Below, in pieces: positions 1,194-56,490 of a DNA stretch of 59,008 bases. Both the position numbers and the translations under genes were made by a program. Position 1 is the first letter of the stretch. Each line of letters begins with the position of its first letter. This DNA is from a virus. Location of the stretch: IMG/VR virus record IMGVR_UViG_3300044994_000135, positions 1 to 59,008 of that record, one strand, 5' to 3'. The notes under the pieces are model-generated. The model had not been told where the DNA came from. It saw nothing but the letters and a program-made list of their open reading frames with translations, and did not search any database.

Positions 1194-2615
1194 CTAAAGC
1201 ACCGGGCCCGACAAAGATCCACCGCCGCCGTCAGGCTTGGTCAGGTCGAGGTGCTTGGTCATCTCGAAAACGTAGTACCGGGCGCTGTCGCCGTAGTGGG
1301 TCCAGGTGTCCTTGGGCGGCTTGTCGATGTCCCACGTGCCCTCCTTGAGGGCCGTCTTGCGGTAGCTGTCGAGTAGGTTCTTACACCGGTAGTGGACGAC
1401 ATAGAGCCCGTAATCCATGGCCTGCGCCATCTTCTCCAAGCTCTGCCGGACGCCCGGGTTGGCACGCGGGGTCTTCATGGTCACGCTCGTGAACCCCGCC
1501 GACCGCAGGTACTTCACGATCTGGTCGTAGTCGCACCCGGCGTCGGTGTTGTGCACGGGGTTATACCCGGAACGGTCTCCGTGGATCTCGATGGGCGTGT
1601 GCCGCCAAGTGTGCACGGGGAACTTCCGCGCGAACTCCATGACTGCCGCCTCCAGCCCGCGCGCCCTACCGTCGGTCTCGTCGAGCGCCACAAACCGGAA
1701 TAGCCGCTCCTGAGAGAACCTGCCGGCGTAGAACGGCTGGCGCTGGTGAACGGTCCACGCGAGCGGGGCGACATTAAAATCCCAGCAGAGGGCCAGTGGC
1801 AACTCAGGGATCGGGCGCACGTCGTCTCCAACGACGTTGCGGGACTCGTTGAAGTTCCAGTAGGCCGTGGACTTCTGGAACGGGACGAATAGCCCGTAGC
1901 GGTAACTCTGGAGCTTGGACGGGTCGTAGGAGTAGCGCTGGACGAGCGCCTCGATATAGCCGGGGGCGAGGTTATGGGCGTTGTGATCAGTAGGGACAAT
2001 AAACGCCCGGACATTGCGTTTCTCATCGAGACGGTCGTAGCCAGTGCCGGGGATGTCGGCTAGCTCGGCGTAGTGATTGATGCCCTCTGGAACTGAGTCG
2101 CCGAGGCCCTGAAGGCACTTCGCCCTCTTATCCCGAAGCCGGTCCATAATGCGGTCAAACACGTCCGCTCTCGAAGTGGCCACCTCTGACCACCGCCAAT
2201 GCGTCAGGCTGGCAGACACAAAATGCACCGGGTTGTCAGCCGAGAGGAAGCTGATCCGGTGGTTGAGCCCCATCTGCCGAAAATCGATTGAGTTTGGGGA
2301 GCTTAAACGAACGATAAAGTGCTGCTTCTCCTTCCACCCGTAAACATCTTGAGCAACCTTGAGTGTCAACTCCAGGAGGGTTTCACAGATCCGGTAATTA
2401 GGCGCAACGGTCCAAGATCTCGTTGGGTTCGGGTCCGACTTTGGCGCGCCATTATCCAGAACACGTTGGAGGTCCCAGATTTGCCCGCCGTAAGATTTCC
2501 CAGCTCCTACCCCCCCTCGAATGAAAGTCACGCGATTGGGAGTGCGATCATTCATCGCATCCCAACACCACCAAGGGACATTTATTCGACGTGCGGATTT
2601 AACACCGGCTACCAA
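1194..2615 (-). CDS. terL: Terminase large subunit (packaging ATPase/nuclease)
   Basis: A 473-residue packaging motor. The Walker A motif GGVGAGKS is near residues 34-41. The C-terminal RNase H-like nuclease half shows acidic strands such as LCWDFNVAPLAW and IEIHGDRSG. The downstream neighbour is the portal. The best start in this frame is TTG at 2613-2615, because a TGA stop lies only three codons upstream (2625-2627). The next ATG, in DAMNDRT, would be some 20 residues further in. A 30-codon frame in the same phase precedes the stop, so the true N terminus may be longer (see the 2625-2717 entry). Function is confident, start uncertain. Confidence 0.92.
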   Translation of the reverse strand: MVAGVKSARRINVPWWCWDAMNDRTPNRVTFIRGGVGAGKSYGGQIWDLQRVLDNGAPKSDPNPTRSWTVAPNYRICETLLELTLKVAQDVYGWKEKQHFIVRLSSPNSIDFRQMGLNHRISFLSADNPVHFVSASLTHWRWSEVATSRADVFDRIMDRLRDKRAKCLQGLGDSVPEGINHYAELADIPGTGYDRLDEKRNVRAFIVPTDHNAHNLAPGYIEALVQRYSYDPSKLQSYRYGLFVPFQKSTAYWNFNESRNVVGDDVRPIPELPLALCWDFNVAPLAWTVHQRQPFYAGRFSQERLFRFVALDETDGRARGLEAAVMEFARKFPVHTWRHTPIEIHGDRSGYNPVHNTDAGCDYDQIVKYLRSAGFTSVTMKTPRANPGVRQSLEKMAQAMDYGLYVVHYRCKNLLDSYRKTALKEGTWDIDKPPKDTWTHYGDSARYYVFEMTKHLDLTKPDGGGGSLSGPVL

Positions 2616-21525: not shown

Positions 21526-21860
21526 ACACGCAAACCGAAACCCCCCAGCCGAGCGGCGGCCCTACCTGCGGCAGGCCGCCGCGCCTTGCCAGTAACTGCC
21601 ACGCCGCCACCCCCGGCGCGATCGGGGTTCTGAGCCTCGCCGGACTCACGCCGGGGCAGTTATTAGACCGGCACTTTTCCGGGGACTGGGGCGATATTTC
21701 CGACGACGACCGGGCGGCAAACGACGCGGCGCTCGCGGGTGGCTCGCGTATTCTGTCGGCCTACCAGACCACGGCGGGGCGGGTCTGGTGCGTCACGGAT
21801 GCGGCCGGCGACGACGGGACGCGAGAACTGACAACGCTGTTGCTACCGGAGGAGTATTGA
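21522..21860 (+). CDS. Plasmid-type hypothetical protein, 112 aa
   Basis: GTG start overlapping the previous stop. The conserved-looking core HFSGDWGDISDDDRAAND followed by ILSAYQT and a terminal LLLPEEY matches a protein type often seen on plasmids and phages, with no established function. Its end overlaps the sigma-factor start as TTGA. Confidence 0.65.
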   Translation: MNTQTETPQPSGGPTCGRPPRLASNCHAATPGAIGVLSLAGLTPGQLLDRHFSGDWGDISDDDRAANDAALAGGSRILSAYQTTAGRVWCVTDAAGDDGTRELTTLLLPEEY

Positions 21861-22546
21861 GCGCCGCCGAGGGGCTAATCCTGGAGTTCTGGCCGCACTT
21901 CGACACGTACCTCCGCGGCCTCTTCCGGCGCCAGCGCTACCCGGAGCACCTGCGCGACGATGCCCGGTCTCTGGCGATGCTCCGGCTCTGGCAATCGGCG
22001 CTGCGGTACGTGGCCAAAAGCCCCGAGACGACCCCCTGGCCGGTCTACGCCAAGGTGGCTATCAAATACGCCCTCCGCCGCACGCGCCGGCTGGCCCTGC
22101 GCGGCTGGGTGGTCCCGGACTCCGGCGCTGTGCTCGGGGCCTCCGGGGTCCCGTACCAACGCCAGCTGGGCATCCCCGAGTTCGTGACCAGCCACGACCC
22201 GCACCCGCACATTGACGCCCGTTTGGATGTTCGTCGCGCCGTGGCCGAGTTGCCGCCGAGGTACCGGCACGTCGTGAGCCGGTACCACTTCGACGGCTGG
22301 ACGTTCGCCGAAATCGCCGAGGAGCAGAACGGGGTTACCCGGCAGTGTACCCACCAGATGCTCCGCCGGGCCCACGGCTGGATGCGCGAGAGGGTACAAA
22401 AGGAGTGTTGCCACACGCCTGCACTGTCTCTGACGCAACGCGGCAGGCGTGCTAAACTGGACGCACGACACAGGCGCGTCAAGCCGGTGCAGCCGGGTGC
22501 ATCGAGAGGTGCCCGCCTGGTTGCGATGGCGAGCCGATCGGTGTGA
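21857..22546 (+). CDS. Sigma-70-family transcription factor
   Basis: About 229 residues from a TTG start that overlaps the previous stop and has GGAGGAG upstream. The C-terminal region-4 helix-turn-helix is clear: AVAELPPRYRHVVSRYHFDG then TFAEIAEEQNG. A region-2-like segment (YLRGLFRRQRYPEHLRDDA) lies near the N terminus. It could redirect RNA polymerase to phage promoters. The last ~45 residues are Arg-rich and may be read-through into DNA that also holds a promoter and the start of a structured RNA. Confidence 0.75.
   Translation: MSAAEGLILEFWPHFDTYLRGLFRRQRYPEHLRDDARSLAMLRLWQSALRYVAKSPETTPWPVYAKVAIKYALRRTRRLALRGWVVPDSGAVLGASGVPYQRQLGIPEFVTSHDPHPHIDARLDVRRAVAELPPRYRHVVSRYHFDGWTFAEIAEEQNGVTRQCTHQMLRRAHGWMRERVQKECCHTPALSLTQRGRRAKLDARHRRVKPVQPGASRGARLVAMASRSV
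22430..22458 (+). promoter_or_regulatory. Sigma-70-like promoter for the structured-RNA region
   Basis: CTGACG (22430-22435), a 17-base spacer, then TAAACT (22453-22458). Each box matches four of six consensus bases. The predicted transcription start is near 22465, just before the hairpin-dense region. Confidence 0.45.
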
Positions 22547-24254: not shown

Positions 24255-25040
24255 ATGTCGGAAGCGAAGTTGATCCTGCACAAGGGTGCGCGACAGGTGT
24301 CGCCGGACGAGCTGCGCGAGGTTCGGCCTCCGCAACCCGTCGGTCGGTGGCACCCGATCTCGCACCACCGCGTGCTGTCCGTCGTGACCCAGACGCTCAT
24401 TGAAGCGGGGTACGCGACGGAGAAGTCCCAGCTCGGGCTGTCCCCGGACGGCCACCGGTTCTTCGGCGTTCTGCGGCTGACGCACCAGATCGCTCACGGC
24501 GTGACGCTGGCCGTCGGGGTGCGAAACAGCAGCGACAAGACGTTCCCGCTGGGGTTCGTCGCCGGGTCCTCGGTTCTCGTTTGCGACAACTTGGCGTTCC
24601 GCTCGGAACTCCTCGTCCGCAAGAAGCACACCCGGTTCGGCGAGCAGCGGTTCGTGACGGCCATCGCCGGGGCGGTCGGGGCGCTGAAGTCGTTCCAGGA
24701 GGCGGAAGCCGAACGGATCGAGCGCTTCACCCGCGCGGAACTCACCGACGACCAAGCCGACGCGCTCATCCTCCGGGCGTACGAGCGCGGCATCATCGGG
24801 GCGCGCGACCTGCCGCGGCTCATCCGCGAGTGGCGCACCCCGGCGCACGCCGACTTCAAGCCGCGCACCGTGTGGTCCCTGTTCAACGCCTTCACCGAGG
24901 CGCTGAAGGAGCGCGTGACGGCGCGCCCGAGCGAGTACGCGCTCCAGACGATGCGGCTGAACGGCCTGATCGACGCGCACCTGCCCGCGCGGCCCGCCGT
25001 GCTGTCCCTCCCGGAGGCCCCGCCCACCGTGGCGGTGTGA
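24255..25040 (+). CDS. DUF932 protein (TIGR03299-like phage/plasmid protein)
   Basis: 261 residues with the family pattern: ISHHRVLSVVTQTLIEAG, VRNSSDKTFPLGFVAGSSVLVCDN and RTVWSLFNAFTEALKE. The family is widespread on plasmids and phages, has no proven activity, and is often suggested to act in DNA maintenance. A GAGGAGG site precedes the ATG. It opens the plasmid-like block; a six-copy 17-bp array follows its stop. Confidence 0.8.
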   Translation: MSEAKLILHKGARQVSPDELREVRPPQPVGRWHPISHHRVLSVVTQTLIEAGYATEKSQLGLSPDGHRFFGVLRLTHQIAHGVTLAVGVRNSSDKTFPLGFVAGSSVLVCDNLAFRSELLVRKKHTRFGEQRFVTAIAGAVGALKSFQEAEAERIERFTRAELTDDQADALILRAYERGIIGARDLPRLIREWRTPAHADFKPRTVWSLFNAFTEALKERVTARPSEYALQTMRLNGLIDAHLPARPAVLSLPEAPPTVAV

Positions 25041-25630: not shown

Positions 25631-26145
25631 CGACTTCTGACGACTTCTGACGACGATGCGAAGCGCGAGCAGCAGTGGAGCCGCTTTGCGGCGGGGAGGG
25701 GTTGCGTTTTCGGGTACCCAATCGGGTTTTCCGTTTTCACAACCCAAGGCGTCATCCGGACCCCTCCCTGTTGTCTCCGAGCAGTAAGTTTGTACAATGG
25801 GCGCGCCTAGGCGGCGCAAAGGGCCAGGATCAGATCTTTGTCAACTCACGTAACGCCAGCTGACGCGACTGGACACTTAGTTTTTGCGACACTCACTTTG
25901 GCCTTCTTTTGAATAAGATTCAAAGCTCTCAGCATCATTTGAAACTCAAAGACGCCATCAAATTTTTTTAAGTTATTTTCTAATTATAATTTGAATATGT
26001 AAGTATATTTCCTTATATTGTTCTCAAATCGCGCTACTCTCCAGTAACTCGAAAACGCGGAAGGTGCGCATTCCCCCAATAATCTCCTGCCGCCGAGGGA
26101 AGGCCCCGACAGCGGCCTTCAGACTTTCAAGTAGGACCACACCCC
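25631..26145. other. Non-coding gap with AT-rich inverted repeats (candidate oriT)
   Basis: Opens with three copies of a TGACGACTTC-like repeat. From about 25870 to 26060 the DNA is strikingly AT-rich. TTTGAAT (25908-25914) and ATTCAAA (25918-25924) form a perfect 7-bp hairpin with a 3-base loop. TTTGAA recurs at 25938 and 25990. A relaxase operon begins just downstream, so this is the best oriT candidate; promoter and operator use are equally possible. No gene is seen. Confidence 0.5.
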
Positions 26146-26924
<779 letters not shown>

Positions 26925-26928
<4 letters not shown>

Positions 26929-28097
26929 GCACCACCTTTACGGGCATCGACGGCGTGACCACCTACCGCGTGGACCTGGACGACCCGCCGTTGGTTCAGG
27001 GCGGCGAGAAGGCGATCCACCCGGTGAAGAACCATGCGGGCGAGGGCCTCTGCGCGGCGGTGTTCCACGCGCGCCCGGTGGACAAGCGGGTGGCGCTGAA
27101 ACTGGAGACGCTGCTCTGTCTGCGCCTCGACCCCCGGAAGTTCGTGGCCATCGAGGACCTGCTGATCGACTCGACCGACGGTCGGTGCCACGGGTACGTG
27201 ATGCACTGGCGACCGGACGCCATCCCGCTCTCGTTGTGCCGCCCGGAGACGCTGTGGGCGCGCGTGGAGCTCATGCGACAGGTGGCGGAGATCTTCGCCG
27301 CGTGCGACCGCATGGCCGCGCCGTCGGTGGTGATGACGGACCCGAAGGCCGACGGGTTCATCGAGCTCCCCGACGGCACCGTGCTGATGGTGGACGTGGA
27401 CAGCCTGGCGCTCTGCGGGACCGGCGTGCGAGACCCCGACGACCCGAGCGAGCTGATCGAGGTGCTGCCCGGCGGGCCGGGGACGGACGGCTACCGCAGC
27501 CCTGAGCGGCTGCTGTTCCCGGAGTCGACGCCGGTGCGCGGGGACGCCCACTTCGCGCTCGCCGTGATCATGTTCGAGCTGGTGGCGGGCTTTCACCCGT
27601 CGGCCATGGTCGGCGCTCCGTGCAAGCTGCGAACGCTCGACGAGCGGGTAGCCTCCGGGCTGTTCGTGCCGTTCCTAGACGACCCCGAAGCCGCCATGGG
27701 CGGGGGCAAGGTGCCGCGCTATGACCCGGCGTGGAAGGAGCTCCCGGCGGAGTTCCGGGAGTTCTTCAGGAACGCCCTCTTGTGCGCCCCGGGGGACCGG
27801 CCCACCGCCGAGAAGTGGTGCTCGTACCTGACCAACCTGCCCCGGCGGCACTGTCCGCCCCCGCCCCCGCCCCCGCCCCCGCCGCCGTCCCTCCCTCTGC
27901 CTGCGCCGCCACCAGTCGACACACCGCCGCACCCCCCGCGGGCGCGTGTCTGGCCCCCCGCGGCGCTGGCTCTCGCGGTCGCCTTGGCCGGCGCGCTCGC
28001 GGCCTGGTGGGTTTTGGTGCGTACGCCGGCGACCATCGAGCAGATCCCCGATCCCGTAGTGCCCGCTGTTTTCCCGGCTACCCCCCTCAAGGAGTAA
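26925..28097 (+). CDS. YegI-like Ser/Thr kinase-fold membrane protein
   Basis: 390 residues. Kinase-like features: VALKLE (N-lobe Lys), LMVDVDS at the metal-binding DFG position and GTDGYRSPERLLF (activation-segment end). The usual HRD/D-x-x-x-x-N loop reads TDPKADGFIE and may be degenerate, so activity is uncertain. A run of 11 Pro, then a single membrane helix (AALALAVALAGALAAWWVLV) ends the chain. It could anchor a vWA-kinase signalling unit at the membrane near the DNA-transfer machinery. An upstream extension of the frame is a shadow. Confidence 0.75.
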
Positions 28098-28103
28098 CCC
28101 GCC

Positions 28104-28370
28104 ATGGTCGCTCGCGTCCCTAGCCCCAAGACCAAGCGCACCAACAACGTGATGGTCCGCCTCAGCTCCCCCGAGCTGGAGGCCGTTCTCGCCGCCAAGC
28201 CCGACGACGTGCCGCTGGCCGTGTACCTGCGGGAGCGCATCACCCGCTCGGCGGACCTGCGCCTGGTGGCGGCGTTCATCGTCGCCGCGCTGTCGCCCGA
28301 CCTGACGCTCGAGGCGACGCTCAAGCTGTTCGACGAAACCATGGGGGGGCTCGGCCATGAGTGTGACTAA
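28104..28370 (+). CDS. MobC-like ribbon-helix-helix relaxosome accessory, 88 aa
   Basis: Basic N terminus, then an RHH pattern: NNVMVRLSSPELEAVLAAKP and AVYLRERI. MobC/TraY-type proteins bind oriT and help the relaxase. It overlaps the relaxase gene by 14 bases, which strongly supports the call. Confidence 0.7.
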   Translation: MVARVPSPKTKRTNNVMVRLSSPELEAVLAAKPDDVPLAVYLRERITRSADLRLVAAFIVAALSPDLTLEATLKLFDETMGGLGHECD

Positions 28371-30039
28371 GGCCACCGCGCGTTACGGCTACGCCCCGGA
28401 CATGAACCGCGAGGGGGAGCTGACCGGCGAGCCCGTCGGGGTGTACACGGCGCAGACCAAGAGGTTCGAGCCGACGGGGCTCACGTTCGCCGAGGCCCTG
28501 GCGGCGCACGGCATCCAGCGGGACGACAGGGTGACGCACTTGTGCAGCACGCTCGATAAGCCCGCGTCGCTGCTCTGCGCCGGCGTGTTCTTCCCGCCGG
28601 ACAAGGCGATGGAGCTGCGGCAGGTGGCGCGGGAGAAGGTGCACGAGCTGCTCGAAATCTGCGCCGCGAACGGCGAGATCCGCAAGGGGGCCGACGGCAA
28701 GGTGCGCCTCGACGCCGTGCCCGTGGCCATCGTCACGGTGGTCCACGACCGCACCTACACGGAGCGCAAGGACGGCACGGTCGAGGACCTCCCGCACTGG
28801 CACGTGCACGCGTTCAAGGCCACCACGTGCGTCACCGAGGACGGTCGCACGGGGCAGGACGCCAGCTTGCGGGACAACTACTACCGCACGCAGACGGCCC
28901 GCGCCGCCGAGCTCAGCAAGGCCGTGCAGGACGCCGCGGTGGCGATGGGCGTTGAGACCAGGGTGACCCGCGACGGCCGCGGCTGGGGCGTGGTCGGCTA
29001 CCCGGACGCGTTCGTCAAGGCGATGTGCTCGGGCAAGGACCGCATCGACCGCGCGATCCTGGAGCGGGGGCTCGAAGGGACGAAGTTTGCCCGCGAGCGC
29101 GACCAGGCGGCGCGGGACCGGCCTGACCGGGCGCGCCCGCCGATGGACCAGATCCCGCCGCTGGAGGAGTCGCGGGCGCGGTGGGAGCAGAAGGGCCGCG
29201 AGTTCGGCTGCGAGCCGCTGAAGCTCCGCCCCCCGGAGAAACTGCCGGACGCGCGCGCCTCGCAATATCTGGCGGCCGAGATCGTGCACAAGGCCGTGGT
29301 GAGGGCCGCCGCCGAGACGGCCAGTGCCGGGGCCGGGTTCTCGGACGTGCAACTGCGGCAGGCGGCGTTCGAGGTGTCGTTCGCCTACCCGCAGGTGACT
29401 GCCCCGCAGGTGGCCGAGGCCGTGCGGCGGGTGCTCGACAAGCCCAAGATTCACGGCCTGGAGCGCGTGGACGGTGCGGCGCAGTTCAAGCTCGTGCAGC
29501 CGGAGCTGAAGAAGGAGGCCGCCGCCGTTGCCGTTGCCGCCGGGCCGCCGCCGAAGCTGCCCAAAGCGCCGCCGCCGCAACCGCCGGAGGCTCTGCGCCC
29601 GCCGCGCCCCGGGGACGCGATCAAGGAGCGCAAGAGCACCCCCGACCGCAAGCCCGCGCCGCCGCCGGTCATCAAGCTCGACGCCGACCGCCCGGACCAG
29701 CTCGGCCGGTTCCTCAAAGAGCAGCGGCGGTACTCGCTGATTCGCCGTCACGCCGAGGCCATCTTTCGCGGCGTCATCACCGAGTACGGCGACATGCACG
29801 CCATGCTCGACAGAGCCCAGCGGAACTTCCGCGAGTACACCCGCGAGAACGCCCCGCGCCTGCCCAAGCGGACCGAGATCGTGGTGAGTAACGCGCAGAA
29901 ACTGGACCTCACGCAACTGCGGGCGCTCGTGCGCCTGGAGCGCGAGCACGGCCGCGGCGTGACGGTGCGGCTGACGTACCCCGAGCAGCGGCGCAAGGAG
30001 CCCGAAAAGCCCCAACGGAAGCAGGAGCCCCAACGATGA
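28357..30039 (+). CDS. MobF (TrwC/TraI)-type relaxase
   Basis: 560 residues. Three-His metal site: VVHDRTY (H130) and HWHVHAF (H149, H151), matching H-x-H-A of TrwC. Candidate catalytic Tyr are Y10, Y12 and Y30. The MobF-style segments THLCSTLDKPASLL, LRDNYYRTQTARAAEL and GRGWGVVGYPDAF also fit. It lacks the C-terminal helicase of TrwC/TraI (usually ~1000 aa); the rest is Pro-rich, then basic. It would nick oriT and carry the strand out. ATGA overlap with the coupling-ATPase gene. Confidence 0.82.
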   Translation: MSVTKATARYGYAPDMNREGELTGEPVGVYTAQTKRFEPTGLTFAEALAAHGIQRDDRVTHLCSTLDKPASLLCAGVFFPPDKAMELRQVAREKVHELLEICAANGEIRKGADGKVRLDAVPVAIVTVVHDRTYTERKDGTVEDLPHWHVHAFKATTCVTEDGRTGQDASLRDNYYRTQTARAAELSKAVQDAAVAMGVETRVTRDGRGWGVVGYPDAFVKAMCSGKDRIDRAILERGLEGTKFARERDQAARDRPDRARPPMDQIPPLEESRARWEQKGREFGCEPLKLRPPEKLPDARASQYLAAEIVHKAVVRAAAETASAGAGFSDVQLRQAAFEVSFAYPQVTAPQVAEAVRRVLDKPKIHGLERVDGAAQFKLVQPELKKEAAAVAVAAGPPPKLPKAPPPQPPEALRPPRPGDAIKERKSTPDRKPAPPPVIKLDADRPDQLGRFLKEQRRYSLIRRHAEAIFRGVITEYGDMHAMLDRAQRNFREYTRENAPRLPKRTEIVVSNAQKLDLTQLRALVRLEREHGRGVTVRLTYPEQRRKEPEKPQRKQEPQR

Positions 30040-31736
30040 CGCCGACGAATCCGTACGCGCCCGAGTTCCAGCAACTCCGCGGCCCGCAGTTGCTCCACCG
30101 GCTAATGGTGGACGGGGGCCACCCGACCATCCTGATCGCGGGAAGCGTGCCGTGGCCGTTCGGGTGGACGAACAAGGGCATCATCTATCTCGGCGTCCCC
30201 GGCTGCGGGAAGTCGGTCGCCATCAAAGCGCAGCGGGCCTCGCTCTCGCCGTACTACCGGCAGCGCGGGGCGCTGTTCCGCGAGTTCGTGATCGACCCGA
30301 CCGGCACGTACTGGGACCACGCCGCGCGGACGCTCCCGCCGGGCGTGCCGATGCTCAACCTCTCGCCGCACTTTGAGGGGTCGCGGTTCTGGGACGTGGC
30401 CCGCGAGACGAACAACGAGCCCGTGATGCTGATGAACCTCGTCGACGGCCTCATGGGCGTTCACGAGCAGAGCGGGGGCATGACCAGCTCCGACCCGTTC
30501 TGGCCCCGGAAGGCCCGCGTGGTGGTGCAGCATCTGATGACCGTGTTCGCCGAGCGCGCCGGCCCGCGCTGGCGGCTGGCCGACGTGGTGCGGGCGCTGT
30601 GGTACCCGGAGTTCCTCGCGCCCATCCTCGCGCAGTCCGCGAGCACGCGCGGCAGCGCGGCGCACGAGATCACCGGCAAGATGGGCAAGGGCATCACGGC
30701 CACGGCCTCGGCGGAGCTGAACCAGCTGGGGATGGTGGCGGCGTTCAGCGACTCGTGCGGGAAGGGGTTCACGTTCCGCGAGCAGTTCGACCGGAGCGTG
30801 TTCATGCACCTGGCGTTCGACCCGAACATCGCCGAGGGGTACAGCCGGTACTCGGCGGCCATGGCCCACATGCTGTACCTGGTCGCGTGCAGGCACGGCA
30901 GCGAGCTCAACCGCACGTTCGTCTTCGCCGACGAGGCCCGCGAGATGCGGAACTTCCGCATCCCGGAGATGCTGGCACGGGGTCGGCAGTTCGGGCTCTC
31001 GCTCACCCTGGCGGCGCAGGGCATCGAGGGCCTTGTTTCGCAATGGGGGGAGAAGGCGACCAAGGAGATGATGGGCCTTATGCAGACCATCGTGGCGTTC
31101 GCCAGCACGCCCGACACCGCCGAGTACCTGTGCAAGATGCTCGGCAAGCGCGATGGCATCGAGACCAACCACACGACCGGGACCTCCGAGGCGCGAGGCC
31201 GCACCGAGGGCCAGTCCTTCAGTGACTCGAGCTCGCAGACGCACAGCTTCACGTGGAACGGCGCACGGCACCTCACACCAGACCACTTCCCGCCGCGCAT
31301 CGTGCCGTCGCCCGCGGCGAACGCCCACCCGTGGGCGCCAAACGTGCGCTGGATTCACACCGGGTCGAACGTCTCGAACTCGCGCAGCTACACAAGCAGT
31401 GGCAGCATCAGCACGACCACGACCACCAGCGCCTCGTGGACGGCCAAGCTCTCCACGCGCGACACGCTCGTGCCGTGGGACCTCGTCGGCCAGCGGATGC
31501 CCGACCCCCACATCGACGAGCTGGACTGCTACGTGATCAGCCGCGAACTCGGCGGCGTTGGCAAGGCTCGCTCCCGCTGGCTGCACGTCCTGGCCGCCGA
31601 CCGTCTGCGTGCGCACGCCCCGTCGCTCGTGCCCAAGCCCCCCGCGCACGGCACGCTCCGACGGTTCACCCGAGACGACCTTCAGCGGCTGGGTCTGGAC
31701 CTGACCGACGAGCTGCTCGCGGCCTTTAATTCTTAA
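30036..31736 (+). CDS. TraG/TraD-like coupling ATPase without membrane anchor
   Basis: 566 residues. Walker A GVPGCGKS (53-60), Walker B TFVFADE (294-300), and ARGRQFGLSLTLAAQG (314-329), the conserved stretch of T4 coupling proteins. No N-terminal membrane segment is visible, unlike the 2714-4579 protein. A Ser/Thr-rich stretch lies near residues 400-475. It is translationally coupled to the relaxase, so it probably receives the relaxosome. The channel would have to come from a resident conjugative system. Confidence 0.83.
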   Translation: MTPTNPYAPEFQQLRGPQLLHRLMVDGGHPTILIAGSVPWPFGWTNKGIIYLGVPGCGKSVAIKAQRASLSPYYRQRGALFREFVIDPTGTYWDHAARTLPPGVPMLNLSPHFEGSRFWDVARETNNEPVMLMNLVDGLMGVHEQSGGMTSSDPFWPRKARVVVQHLMTVFAERAGPRWRLADVVRALWYPEFLAPILAQSASTRGSAAHEITGKMGKGITATASAELNQLGMVAAFSDSCGKGFTFREQFDRSVFMHLAFDPNIAEGYSRYSAAMAHMLYLVACRHGSELNRTFVFADEAREMRNFRIPEMLARGRQFGLSLTLAAQGIEGLVSQWGEKATKEMMGLMQTIVAFASTPDTAEYLCKMLGKRDGIETNHTTGTSEARGRTEGQSFSDSSSQTHSFTWNGARHLTPDHFPPRIVPSPAANAHPWAPNVRWIHTGSNVSNSRSYTSSGSISTTTTTSASWTAKLSTRDTLVPWDLVGQRMPDPHIDELDCYVISRELGGVGKARSRWLHVLAADRLRAHAPSLVPKPPAHGTLRRFTRDDLQRLGLDLTDELLAAFNS

Positions 31737-31753
31737 CCCGGAGTTGGCACCCC

Positions 31754-32488
31754 ATGAAGACCTTTTTCTCCATCATCTTCGGGGTTGCGCTCGCCTGCTG
31801 CGCGAGCGCCCTGGGGATGCTCGGCGGCTGCGTCAAAAAGCCCGAACCGCCGCCGCCGGAGAACGTCGGGGACCCGAACGCCTCCGTCAAGAAGACGAAC
31901 GAGGTGATCCGCGGCAACCTGCGCGCCATCCGCGAGCGGCTCTCCGCCGCGCGGAGCGAGTACAAGCTCAACGCCGACATCGGGAGTGACCTCCTGGGCG
32001 CGACCGAGGAGTTGCTCAAGCTCTCCGGCACCGCCCGCGACGACTGCGACCGCATGATCCGGGCCGCCGACGACATCCGCTGGGACCTGCCGCGAGCGGC
32101 CATCGGGTACAAGGCCAACGCCGACCGCTGCCGCCTGGACGCCGAGCGCACCAACGACGAGCGCATGCGGGGCATCCACCTGCAAACGGCGGCGATGATG
32201 GACCGGTACGCCGCCGAGGTCCCACGCCGGATGAAGGTGACCGAGGAGTTCCTGGCGTCGGCCAAGCAGACCCGCGCGCTGCTGGCCGAGAGCGAGCGCA
32301 CCTTGCGCGTGCAGTGGGAGGCCATGGTCATCGGCACGACAGGGGCGGAAAAGCCCGCCGTGCGGATCGAGACCAAGGTTTACATGGCGCAGTTCGAGCA
32401 GTTCTTGAGCGTGGTCGAGCGGTTCTACCGGGAGTTCGGCGAGCCGCCCCCGGTGGTAGCGTCCCCGGCGGCCCCGCCGCAGGGCTGA
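31754..32488 (+). CDS. Exported lipoprotein, 244 aa
   Basis: Signal peptide (MKTFFSIIFGVALACC) and lipobox LGGC with lipid-bearing Cys at 26, then a long charged helical body (coiled coil likely) and a Pro/Ala tail. Last gene of the relaxase operon, so a surface role in transfer, exclusion or entry block is possible; no family recognised. Followed by a strong hairpin. Confidence 0.7.
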   Translation: MKTFFSIIFGVALACCASALGMLGGCVKKPEPPPPENVGDPNASVKKTNEVIRGNLRAIRERLSAARSEYKLNADIGSDLLGATEELLKLSGTARDDCDRMIRAADDIRWDLPRAAIGYKANADRCRLDAERTNDERMRGIHLQTAAMMDRYAAEVPRRMKVTEEFLASAKQTRALLAESERTLRVQWEAMVIGTTGAEKPAVRIETKVYMAQFEQFLSVVERFYREFGEPPPVVASPAAPPQG

Positions 32489-32508: not shown

Positions 32509-32550
32509 GCCCCGGCCGCCGATCCCTGGGGTAGGACCGGAGGCCGGGGC
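32509..32550. terminator. Bidirectional terminator between lipoprotein and integrase
   Basis: A 9-bp GC-rich stem: GCCCCGGCC (32509-32517) pairs with GGCCGGGGC (32542-32550). It lies between two converging genes and is preceded by an A-run that gives U for leftward transcripts. Confidence 0.7.
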
Positions 32551-32619: not shown

Positions 32620-33639
32620 TCAGCTCACCACCTGCTGCGCAACATCTCGCATGTGTTTTACCCGCTCTTGCAACTGCGAATAGTGCCTCATAACCATGTC
32701 CGTGCTGGTGTGCCCGACCAGCTCGGCCACCTTAACCGCGTCCACGCCCCGTTCCAGGGCGTCGGTGACGTAGGCCCGGCGGTAGCTCGTGGCGGTGAAG
32801 TGGCCGAGCTCCGGGAACTTCTTGCGGAGGTTGCGGAACCGGATGCGGATGGAGTTGCGGTTCCAGGGGCTCCCGCGACTGTTGAGGAACAGCGGCCCGT
32901 CGGGGTGAGCGCGGACCAGCTCGCGGGTGATCTCCAGCATCCCGGCGGTGAGGTACACCACGCGGGGCTTGCCGGTCTTGTTGGCGGTCTTGTGCTTCGG
33001 GAGCGTCCACGTCCCTTGCGTGAGATCGACGTGCTCAGCGGTGAGGACACACAACTCCCCGGGCCGACACCCGGTCTGTTCGAGCGCCGTCAGGACGAGC
33101 TGAAAAGCCGTGTCCTTGATGGCCTTGAAGATCTTGCCCCGCTCATCCACCGTCAAGTATGCGAGCACACGGTTAGGAGCGGGGACGTCGATCCCGTGAA
33201 TGGGGTTACGCTGGAGTTTCCGTCGCTTAACCGCCCAGTTGAACATTCGCAGGAGAGAGCGGAGGGCGTGCCGCCGGGAGCGCTTCCAGGAGGGGTTCTC
33301 TTCCACCCACGATTCGACCAGTTCGATCGTGATGCGATGGGGCGGTGTTTCGCGGACTCGCTTGTATCCGAGGAACGACCGCAGAAAGTGCCGGACTTGA
33401 TCGTAGGTTTGAGCTTCGCGGTGTTTCTTGAGCCAGGCCAGGTACTCCGCCGCGAGGCAGCCGGTAGTGCCCTTCGACTCTTCGTCTGGAACGTGCCGCT
33501 CGGCCATGAGCCGGTGGTACTCTCTCTCGGCAGCGGGCTTGTTGTCGCGTCCCCGAGCGAGCGGCGTCTGCACGCCGTCGATCCAAACGCACCAGGTGTC
33601 CCGAGCCGTCCAGAACCAGGGCTTGCGAGGTCGGGCCAT
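32620..33639 (-). CDS. int: Tyrosine recombinase (phage integrase)
   Basis: 339 residues. Catalytic pattern: TGCRPGEL (first Arg), FTATSYRRAYVT (the box usually written H-x-x-R, here T-x-x-R), LVGHTSTDMVMRHY (His and nucleophile Tyr). The N-terminal SAM-like DNA-binding domain spans about 60-150. Loss of the first His is seen in some active family members. It reads away from the attP candidate that begins just upstream of its start. Confidence 0.9.
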   Translation of the reverse strand: MARPRKPWFWTARDTWCVWIDGVQTPLARGRDNKPAAEREYHRLMAERHVPDEESKGTTGCLAAEYLAWLKKHREAQTYDQVRHFLRSFLGYKRVRETPPHRITIELVESWVEENPSWKRSRRHALRSLLRMFNWAVKRRKLQRNPIHGIDVPAPNRVLAYLTVDERGKIFKAIKDTAFQLVLTALEQTGCRPGELCVLTAEHVDLTQGTWTLPKHKTANKTGKPRVVYLTAGMLEITRELVRAHPDGPLFLNSRGSPWNRNSIRIRFRNLRKKFPELGHFTATSYRRAYVTDALERGVDAVKVAELVGHTSTDMVMRHYSQLQERVKHMRDVAQQVVS

Positions 33640-33677
33640 ATGCGGATCTCCTCCGTAGAAGGGAATCCGCCGTCGAG

Positions 33678-34041
33678 TTCCGTGACAAGATTCCGTGACA
33701 TATGCTACGTCGGCACAATCGCGAAACGTTGAAAAGTGCTTGTTTTCTAGGGCTTTTCTGCGTTACTGTCGAGTTACTTCGGGGAGACTTCTTTTGGTCC
33801 CGAACCAAGCGCTCTACCAAGCTGAGCTACAGCCCGCGATCTCAAGCACCCACGTTTTCGGCGGCGTTCCCAAGGGTTTGGTTACTCGGACGCCGATATC
33901 TTACCGCCCGACGGGCACGAAACCAGCCCAAAAATTCCCCGGGGAGAAACTCGGCGGTTCCGGGCGGTTTCGCGCGGTCTTCTGGCGGTTACGTGTCAGT
34001 TTCTCGGCGGTTCCGTGCGGGTTCCGTGTCACTTCCGTGAC
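33678..34041. other. attP: Candidate attP with tRNA-Pro(CGG) 5' fragment and arm repeats
   Basis: Leftward 33836-33791 is the first 46 nt of a tRNA-Pro: acceptor strand, D-arm and anticodon arm with loop TTCGGGA (anticodon CGG). The T-arm and 3' end are missing, so it is not a gene. Integrase arm-type repeats flank it: TTCCGTGAC at 33678 and 33691 on the left, and TTCCGTG(C/T/A) forms at 34011, 34022 and 34033 on the right, 11 bases apart. Integration into a host tRNA-Pro would rebuild the tRNA with a phage-supplied 5' half. Confidence 0.75.
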
Positions 34042-34207
34042 GCCGGTGCCCATCCGCCGCGTCGAGCTCCGGGTCAGGCGGCTCGCACCTCGGCGGGCAC
34101 GCGCAGTGTTTGCGACACCGGAAACACACGTAGCACGGCGACCACACGCACGAGCAAACGCCGTGGAGCCCCCGGAGCATGCAGCAGGCGCAGCGATAGG
34201 TCCTCAT
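33989..34207 (-). CDS. Cys-rich small ORF, 72 aa
   Basis: MRTYRCACCMLRGLHGVC and a further row of Cys give about 11 Cys in the first 45 residues, enough for two zinc sites; the tail is low-complexity. A G-rich stretch precedes the ATG. The 3' end overlaps the attP right-arm repeats, which weakens the case. Could be an excisionase-like or regulatory protein, or chance. Confidence 0.35.
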   Translation of the reverse strand: MRTYRCACCMLRGLHGVCSCVWSPCYVCFRCRKHCACPPRCEPPDPELDAADGHRRHGSDTEPARNRRETDT

Positions 34208-34252
34208 CCCCCCATTCAAGCGCCCGATCCGCCGTCGCGCAAGGCCAGTCTG

Positions 34253-34262
34253 AACGCCGTTT
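34253..34262. promoter_or_regulatory. AACGCCGTT palindromic box before the 34398 gene
   Basis: Same box as at 5980 and 8469, here in a gap right of attP. Upstream of the 34398 gene, which also has a small GGGCC/GGCCC hairpin (34366-34370/34378-34382) before its ribosome site. Confidence 0.3.
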
Positions 34263-34397
34263 TACATTTTCCTCCACGAGCGCTCAACCAGTTAGCGTCT
34301 CTCAAACGCTGTTTATCGTAAAAACATGTGGCCTTCGCGCCGGACGATCGATCTTAATCACTGAGGGGCCGACGGATGGCCCGAAGGAGGAAAACGC

Positions 34398-55608: not shown

Positions 55609-56490
55609 TTAGGCCACGTCGCTCTTCAGGCAGACGCCCGCAGAGTCGACGTACTCCCCGACCTGGTACCACATCATCGTCTTGATGTTCAGGATGCTGT
55701 TGGCGAACTCGGTCTGTTCGGCGATCGAAGTCTCGAACGCCGGCTCGTCCCCGCTCGGGTAGAGGGCCGCGATGGCAAACTGCGGAGCCCACACCCCCCC
55801 GACGTGGTTGGTGTTGGAGTCGGCGAGCGCCGTGTTCCCGGACTCGTACAGCTCGATCCCGAGCATCGTGCCGAGGAAGCCCGGGACGGCTTGAGCGCCG
55901 TTCAGAGCTCGCTCGGGGTTGAACTGCGGGTTGGCGTAGAACGACCCGCTGGAGTTGCGGATATCATTGCCGATCTCGTAGGACTGCTTGTAGTTGAGCA
56001 CCCCGACAAGCCGCTGCGACGGGATGTTCCCGGCGCGGACCAGGTAGGCCGCTTCGAGGATCTTCGCCACCGTCATTGTCGCGCCCGCGTCGACGACTTG
56101 CGAGAAGCCGGCTGCCAGGGCGAGGACGTCCTGGTCGAACTTCTTCGCGCACGCCTGGGCGCTGAGGGACGCCAACCGGTTCGGGTCAGCCCCCGCCGCG
56201 AACCGCACGCTCTCGATGGAGGGGCGGAGCAGCACAACGGCCTTTTGCAGAGTCAGCGTCACCTTAGTGTCGGTGAGCGTCTGGCTCGTCGCCGCGCCGA
56301 TCTCGGCCACCACCGAGGCGGTGATGCTGCCGGACTTCGGCAGGTCCTTGACGCGGGTGTTGGGGGCTCCGACGTTGAACGGAGCGACCAGCCGTGGCGC
56401 GATTACCTGGCTGGTGAACATTGGCACGATGGCGGCGTCCACTGCCGCCGCCAACGTGATCATGTTGGAATACTGGGTTTCGTTAGCCAT
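55609..56490 (-). CDS. Major capsid protein, 293 aa
   Basis: Reads as an HK97-fold coat protein: helical and strand mix (TLTLQKAVVLLRPSIESVRF), spine-like KKFDQDVLALAAGFSQVVDA, and a C-terminal part AEQTEFANSILNIKTMMWYQ. Preceded by a scaffold gene and followed by a strong terminator, the standard coat context. Confidence 0.82.
   Translation of the reverse strand: MANETQYSNMITLAAAVDAAIVPMFTSQVIAPRLVAPFNVGAPNTRVKDLPKSGSITASVVAEIGAATSQTLTDTKVTLTLQKAVVLLRPSIESVRFAAGADPNRLASLSAQACAKKFDQDVLALAAGFSQVVDAGATMTVAKILEAAYLVRAGNIPSQRLVGVLNYKQSYEIGNDIRNSSGSFYANPQFNPERALNGAQAVPGFLGTMLGIELYESGNTALADSNTNHVGGVWAPQFAIAALYPSGDEPAFETSIAEQTEFANSILNIKTMMWYQVGEYVDSAGVCLKSDVA

Follow-up and report, generated by a model that had tools for sequence, protein, structure and literature searches.

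A conjugative-type relaxase and coupling ATPase in an apparently complete tailed phage genome

Introduction

Why would a tailed phage that appears to encode its own virions also carry a relaxase and a coupling ATPase of the conjugative type? The question is raised by the IMG/VR record IMGVR_UViG_3300044994_000135, whose 59,008 nucleotides were analysed in full and are referred to here as the window (G000 among the related records). According to an original prediction, three overlapping genes of the window encode a MobC-like protein, a MobF relaxase lacking the usual C-terminal helicase and a TraG-like ATPase, and share a circular replicon with head, tail, packaging and lysis genes, with no VirB4 channel gene; a mobilizable phage-plasmid was suggested. 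Here, we describe what profile searches, gene context and related viruses add to this picture.

Results

The window as a phage genome

The window ends in repeats of 177 bp (175/177 identical). When the ends are joined with a single copy of the repeat, an intact portal ORF spans the junction. The portal product matches phrog_145 (1.6e-38) and shares 34% identity over 477 residues with a protein of G011, a related virus described below. Besides the terminase large subunit and the major capsid protein (Table 1), the window encodes a scaffold, a small-terminase-like protein, an SLT transglycosylase and an endolysin-like protein, which supports the predicted head, packaging and lysis context of a tailed phage. 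Judged by these genes, the virion set looks complete and the phage is apparently complete. Its replication set comprises a Prim-Pol/D5 primase-helicase, a helicase, an SSB and an exonuclease. Of note, the phage also encodes a sigma-70 region 4-like protein (21788-22546, + strand).

Searches for VirB4-type ATPases with PF19044 and PF03135 gave no match across the window or a second phage, G002, in line with the predicted absence of a VirB4 channel gene. On the other hand, the label "phage-plasmid" is not supported: ParA (PF13614) had no match in the window or in G002, and a tyrosine integrase adjoins the transfer genes instead.

Table 1. Features of the window discussed in the text.
Feature	Position	Strand	Basis
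Terminase large subunit	1194..2615	-	phrog_10250 1.2e-9; 40% to G011 counterpart
Second TraG/VirD4-like ATPase, N-terminal TM segment	2714..4579	-	TrwB_AAD_bind 6e-6, TraG-D_C 9e-6
DUF932 gene, upstream of module in both phages	24255-25040	+	45% to G002
Non-coding region upstream of run: putative promoter, candidate oriT region	25631..26145	.	low GC, sigma-70-like sites
vWA-like protein, first gene of run	26146..26928	+	MIDAS-like DASGSM motif, seen in sequence
Protein-kinase-like protein, C-terminal TM segment	26925..28097	+	TM 342-360
Small DNA-binding accessory protein candidate, TrwA/MobC position	28104..28370	+	position and pattern only
MobF/TrwC-type relaxase, HUH domain only, no helicase	28357..30039	+	Pfam TrwC, NCBIfam MobF, H...HxH
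TrwB/TraG-type coupling ATPase without N-terminal membrane anchor	30036..31736	+	TrwB_AAD_bind, TraG-D_C, Walker A
Putative lipoprotein, last gene of run	31754..32488	+	N-terminal hydrophobic segment, then lipobox-like LGGC
17-nt inverted repeat after run, possible terminator	32509..32550	.	folds at -34 kcal/mol
Tyrosine recombinase (phage integrase), convergent with run	32620..33639	-	Phage_integrase 3.4e-19; phrog_1 2.4e-44
Non-coding region beside integrase, candidate attP arm sites	33640..34301	.	four TTCCGTGACA-like 10-mers
Major capsid protein	55609..56490	-	phrog_267 3.8e-6; Pelagibacter phage capsid proteins, tblastn 1e-8

The transfer genes within a six-gene run

The coordinates of the three predicted ORFs proved exact. 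They overlap by 14 and 4 nt and form the middle of a longer, operon-like run of six genes on the same strand (26146-32488), with spacings of -4, +6, -14, -4 and +17 nt. GC3 codon bias is strong for the relaxase and the coupling ATPase (0.93-0.94), and the block has a GC content of about 0.68-0.73 vs 0.65. Ahead of the run, the non-coding region holds sigma-70-like sites and, from 25937, the 80-bp stretch with the lowest GC content in the genome (20%). The inverted repeat behind the run is strong but has no T run and was not matched by a simple terminator scan.

The small protein at the head of the trio (88 aa) is ribbon-helix-helix-like by pattern and matched no Pfam family; it is treated here as an accessory protein candidate, assigned by pattern and position, for which the name "MobC-like" would claim too much. 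A RecA-like identity was considered for it and rejected, as the PDB matches were artificial RecA repeat fusions and no stretch passed alone, so that these matches were taken as chance.

Directly upstream of the transfer genes lies the pair of vWA-like and kinase-like genes (26146-28097), which was not seen in G002 and is reminiscent of TerY-P type pairs. A Pfam search with the vWA-like product gave no match, and the kinase-like product gave a weak Pkinase match below the cut-off (E=0.017). The pair is probably co-transcribed with the transfer genes. The putative lipoprotein that closes the run matched no Pfam family.

A divergent MobF/TrwC relaxase

The HMMER check of the relaxase supports its predicted identity: residues 65-281 match Pfam TrwC at 5.4e-10 (39.8 bits, cut-off 25), while the match to NCBIfam MobF (3.3e-9) stays, at 36.7 bits, far below the equivalog cut-off of 100. 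The three-histidine metal site (H130, H149 and H151) aligns with the H...HxH motif of TrwC and TraI and has a matching counterpart in the G002 relaxase. Y10 and Y12 of the window protein, and Y12 of the G002 protein, lie in the stretch expected to hold the catalytic tyrosines and are candidates for them; the alignment is loose here and shows no double YY pairs. Beyond residue 282 of the 560-aa protein, neither Pfam nor NCBIfam gave a helicase domain match, so the missing C-terminal helicase had been read correctly. A single-sequence structure prediction for the relaxase domain was of low quality (pLDDT 48), and a fold search with it gave no match.

Neither tblastn searches with the relaxase against phages and plasmids nor a peptide-pattern search of viral contigs with relaxase and coupling ATPase found close relatives. 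The R388 TrwC domain, searched against 50,697 phage records, retrieved only two unannotated faecal "Bacteriophage sp." records; one of these was opened and is marked UNVERIFIED. The TrwC/MobF match of the relaxase and the TrwB/TraG match of the ATPase are not due to chance, and the relaxase is a divergent protein of the MobF/TrwC type.

A coupling ATPase without a membrane anchor

The coupling ATPase exceeds the Pfam cut-offs for TrwB_AAD_bind (8e-19) and TraG-D_C (8e-14), which upholds its assignment, and it retains the TraG/TraD TraM-recognition region. A profile built from the coupling ATPases of both phages matches TrwB (1e9r) at 3e-4. Neither phage protein has an N-terminal TM segment, and Walker A starts at residue 53 in the window and 20 in G002 vs residues 112-205 in those plasmid relatives in which it could be located. 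This absence of an N-terminal membrane anchor from both phage ATPases is new here.

Most of the plasmid relatives inspected are coupling proteins encoded next to a MobF relaxase; one had no relaxase annotated in the stretch shown, and its plasmid is typed MOBF. Attempts to place the window and G002 proteins in a coupling-ATPase tree gave long branches and no resolved position. Searches for the coupling ATPase by tblastn in phages and by peptide pattern in genome contigs returned nothing close, and R388 TrwB had no match among the 50,697 phage records.

A corresponding arrangement in a second phage

A corresponding arrangement lies in G002 (IMGVR_UViG_3300034200_001057; 61,470 bp, GC 0.49), retrieved by a helicase search, which shares the primase, helicase, SSB, exonuclease, DUF932 protein, lysozyme and others with the window at ~30-48% protein identity (about 40% for the early genes). 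The G002 head genes differ from those of the window and match large-terminase, portal and major-head PHROGs. The G002 module reads, on the minus strand, RHH-like protein, relaxase, 3-TM protein, coupling ATPase, excisionase and integrase, all in one direction and overlapping or separated by a 2-nt gap, and it follows homologues of the window genes at 24255 (DUF932) and 25244, i.e. it occupies the syntenic site. Its small gene at the corresponding place encodes 92 aa with a weak match to RHH families, its relaxase matches TrwC (4e-16, 53.9 bits; unreported by hmmscan with its filters) and also lacks a C-terminal helicase, and its coupling ATPase gives a TrwB-type match (1e-19). The protein next to that ATPase has 107 aa and three TM segments; the excisionase-like gene encodes an HTH protein.

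Pairwise BLAST did not align the two relaxases (E about 2), which are linked through the TrwC profile; a common ancestor of the cassette is therefore unproven, and the two phages may have acquired the module independently.

G011 (51,734 bp), by comparison, matches the window in early and virion genes (e.g. 40% for the terminase and 56% for a late-region protein); its early-to-late junction is uninterrupted, and module and integrase are both absent. A relaxase or TrwB-type ATPase occurs in only 2/28 related virus records, namely the window and G002, most of the others being fragments, and the same two are the only ones of 11 related records with the integrase. The module is thus an accessory cassette, linked to an integrase and found in two phages at the same syntenic site. 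Att-type direct repeats bounding it were not found above chance in the window or G002. Beside the window's integrase, TTCCGTGACA-like 10-mers occur as two pairs (at 33678 and 33691, and at 34022 and 34033; 33678-34042 overall) and are possible arm-type integrase sites.

L020, a contig belonging to an "Actinomycetes" MAG, carries related genes for primase, helicase, SSB and exonuclease and is a further relative, probably a phage. It was the only relative found in genome contigs, and its MAG gave no TraG-D_C or TrwC match.

A second TraG-like ATPase

Also new here is a second TraG-like ATPase of the window, which adjoins the large terminase gene and has one N-terminal TM segment. A Leptolyngbya plasmid protein is 48% identical to it over 78%, and a tree places it together with the TraG protein from a Pseudomonas MPF_F plasmid. 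It also matches PADLOC mad8 (7e-10), and because of this resemblance a role in defence is possible. On the Leptolyngbya plasmid, pLBX, a protelomerase gene lies beside the relative of this ATPase (L053, 12658-14442).

Discussion

With somewhat better than even confidence, we read the locus as part of a temperate tailed phage that carries a mobilization cassette like that of an integrative mobilizable element (IME) and is able to use a helper channel. In such a scheme, the relaxase and the small DNA-binding protein would nick one strand of the excised or prophage DNA at a phage oriT. As removal of the TM domain from TrwB or MobB abolishes transfer, a soluble coupling ATPase must find a membrane anchor, which a membrane partner could provide; the separate 3-TM protein is the natural candidate in G002, and in the window, where no comparable gene stands out, the partner might be the kinase-like TM protein, the lipoprotein or perhaps the second of the two TraG-like ATPases. 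Once anchored, the ATPase would pass the relaxase and its bound DNA on to a type IV channel supplied by a conjugative element in the same cell. From the gene set we infer nicking at an oriT, docking, transfer and a benefit to the phage, which would leave by two routes: as virions after lysis, or by hitch-hiking on conjugation out of a lysogen whose host is not killed. In G002, where excisionase and integrase directly follow the transfer genes, excision may be coupled to mobilization.

Alternatively, the two enzymes might have been recruited to DNA processing within the phage cycle: the relaxase would start rolling-circle replication or make the nick from which packaging begins, and the soluble ATPase would move DNA inside the cell. 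Relaxases and rolling-circle initiators belong to one HUH superfamily, neither phage's coupling ATPase carries a membrane anchor, and the module goes with an early-gene set and not with a particular virion type, all of which fits such a role. Yet both phages already have a primase-helicase of the Prim-Pol/D5 type, a helicase, an SSB and an exonuclease, the window has its own terminase and portal, and G011, with matching replication and virion genes, is without the module; besides, a TraM-recognition region is retained in the ATPase. We regard this account as unlikely, and extend the same low expectation to the block being a separate IME, a mere passenger inserted in the phage with no role for it. 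That would explain why the gene content equals an IME core, the integrase occurs only in the two module-bearing phages and the block is richer in GC, and very divergent relaxases are what separate acquisitions should leave behind; it sits poorly with the lack of flanking direct repeats above chance in either genome and with the use of one site, after DUF932 and a small neighbour, in both.

Could the genes be decaying leftovers without function? The divergent relaxase, its uncertain tyrosines and the missing helicase and TM anchor would be compatible with decay, but the three intact overlapping ORFs, the GC3 bias of relaxase and ATPase, the intact H..HxH and Walker motifs and a gene order kept in a distant phage speak against it, and we hold it to be quite improbable. 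Least credible is a chimeric metagenome assembly that joined plasmid to phage DNA. Although this genome is known from a single record, such a joining is very improbable because the independent G002, with its different GC content, has the corresponding arrangement at the syntenic site, between homologous phage genes.

Returning to the phage with a mobilization cassette, a stronger version of this reading is that, in a lineage of tailed temperate phages, the cassette is maintained in working order beside a full virion programme, with dual travel and, in one member, excision and mobilization in one operon. This we consider a real prospect that falls short of even. A phage that joins an apparently full virion set to a relaxase and a coupling ATPase, as observed twice with different capsids, would speak for stable dual-route transmission, by which the phage genome could reach cells without its receptor. 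It also makes testable whether a prophage can leave a living host by conjugation.

Among known systems, the R388 Trw region (trwA-trwB-trwC, MOBF) likewise combines a small DNA-binding protein, a TrwB-type ATPase and a TrwC relaxase, with the order small protein-ATPase-relaxase in R388 and small protein-relaxase-ATPase in the window. Unlike in R388, the window relaxase is a 560-aa protein without helicase, the ATPase has no TM domain and the genes are phage-borne. T4CPs without a TM domain are known, and some interact with small membrane proteins (PMC7434980); the soluble coupling ATPase resembles these (e.g. TraJ of pIP501), and in G002 a small 3-TM gene lies next to it, yet here the ATPase is phage-encoded and paired with a MobF-type relaxase. 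The presence of an integrase and a relaxase without a mating channel (VirB4-type families searched genome-wide) recalls the iMOB elements defined in this way (PMC11389934), which differ from the window genome in that the latter has a full-looking virion gene set and its own coupling ATPase.

Phage and plasmid-transfer genes are also mixed in phage-plasmids and P1-derived mobilizable plasmids. Pfeifer and Rocha detected mob/oriT in the majority of P1-derived plasmids and in just two of the P1-like phage-plasmids (PMC10879196), and two P1-related oriT-bearing elements without virion proteins have been classed as plasmids (PMC12977533). In P1-like elements, the best-studied group of such mixtures, mobilization genes are nearly confined to members that have lost their phage functions, whereas the virion set of the window is apparently full, ParA was not found and an integrase is present. 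The combination of phage, relaxase and coupling ATPase looks rare, as far as the open-access literature and the 50,697 phage records show, because the latter yielded next to nothing with R388 TrwC and TrwB as queries. Mobilizable elements are already known as a kind, and the function of the cassette here is a predicted one; carriage of such a cassette by a complete-looking phage appears, from its sequence, to be both real and uncommon.
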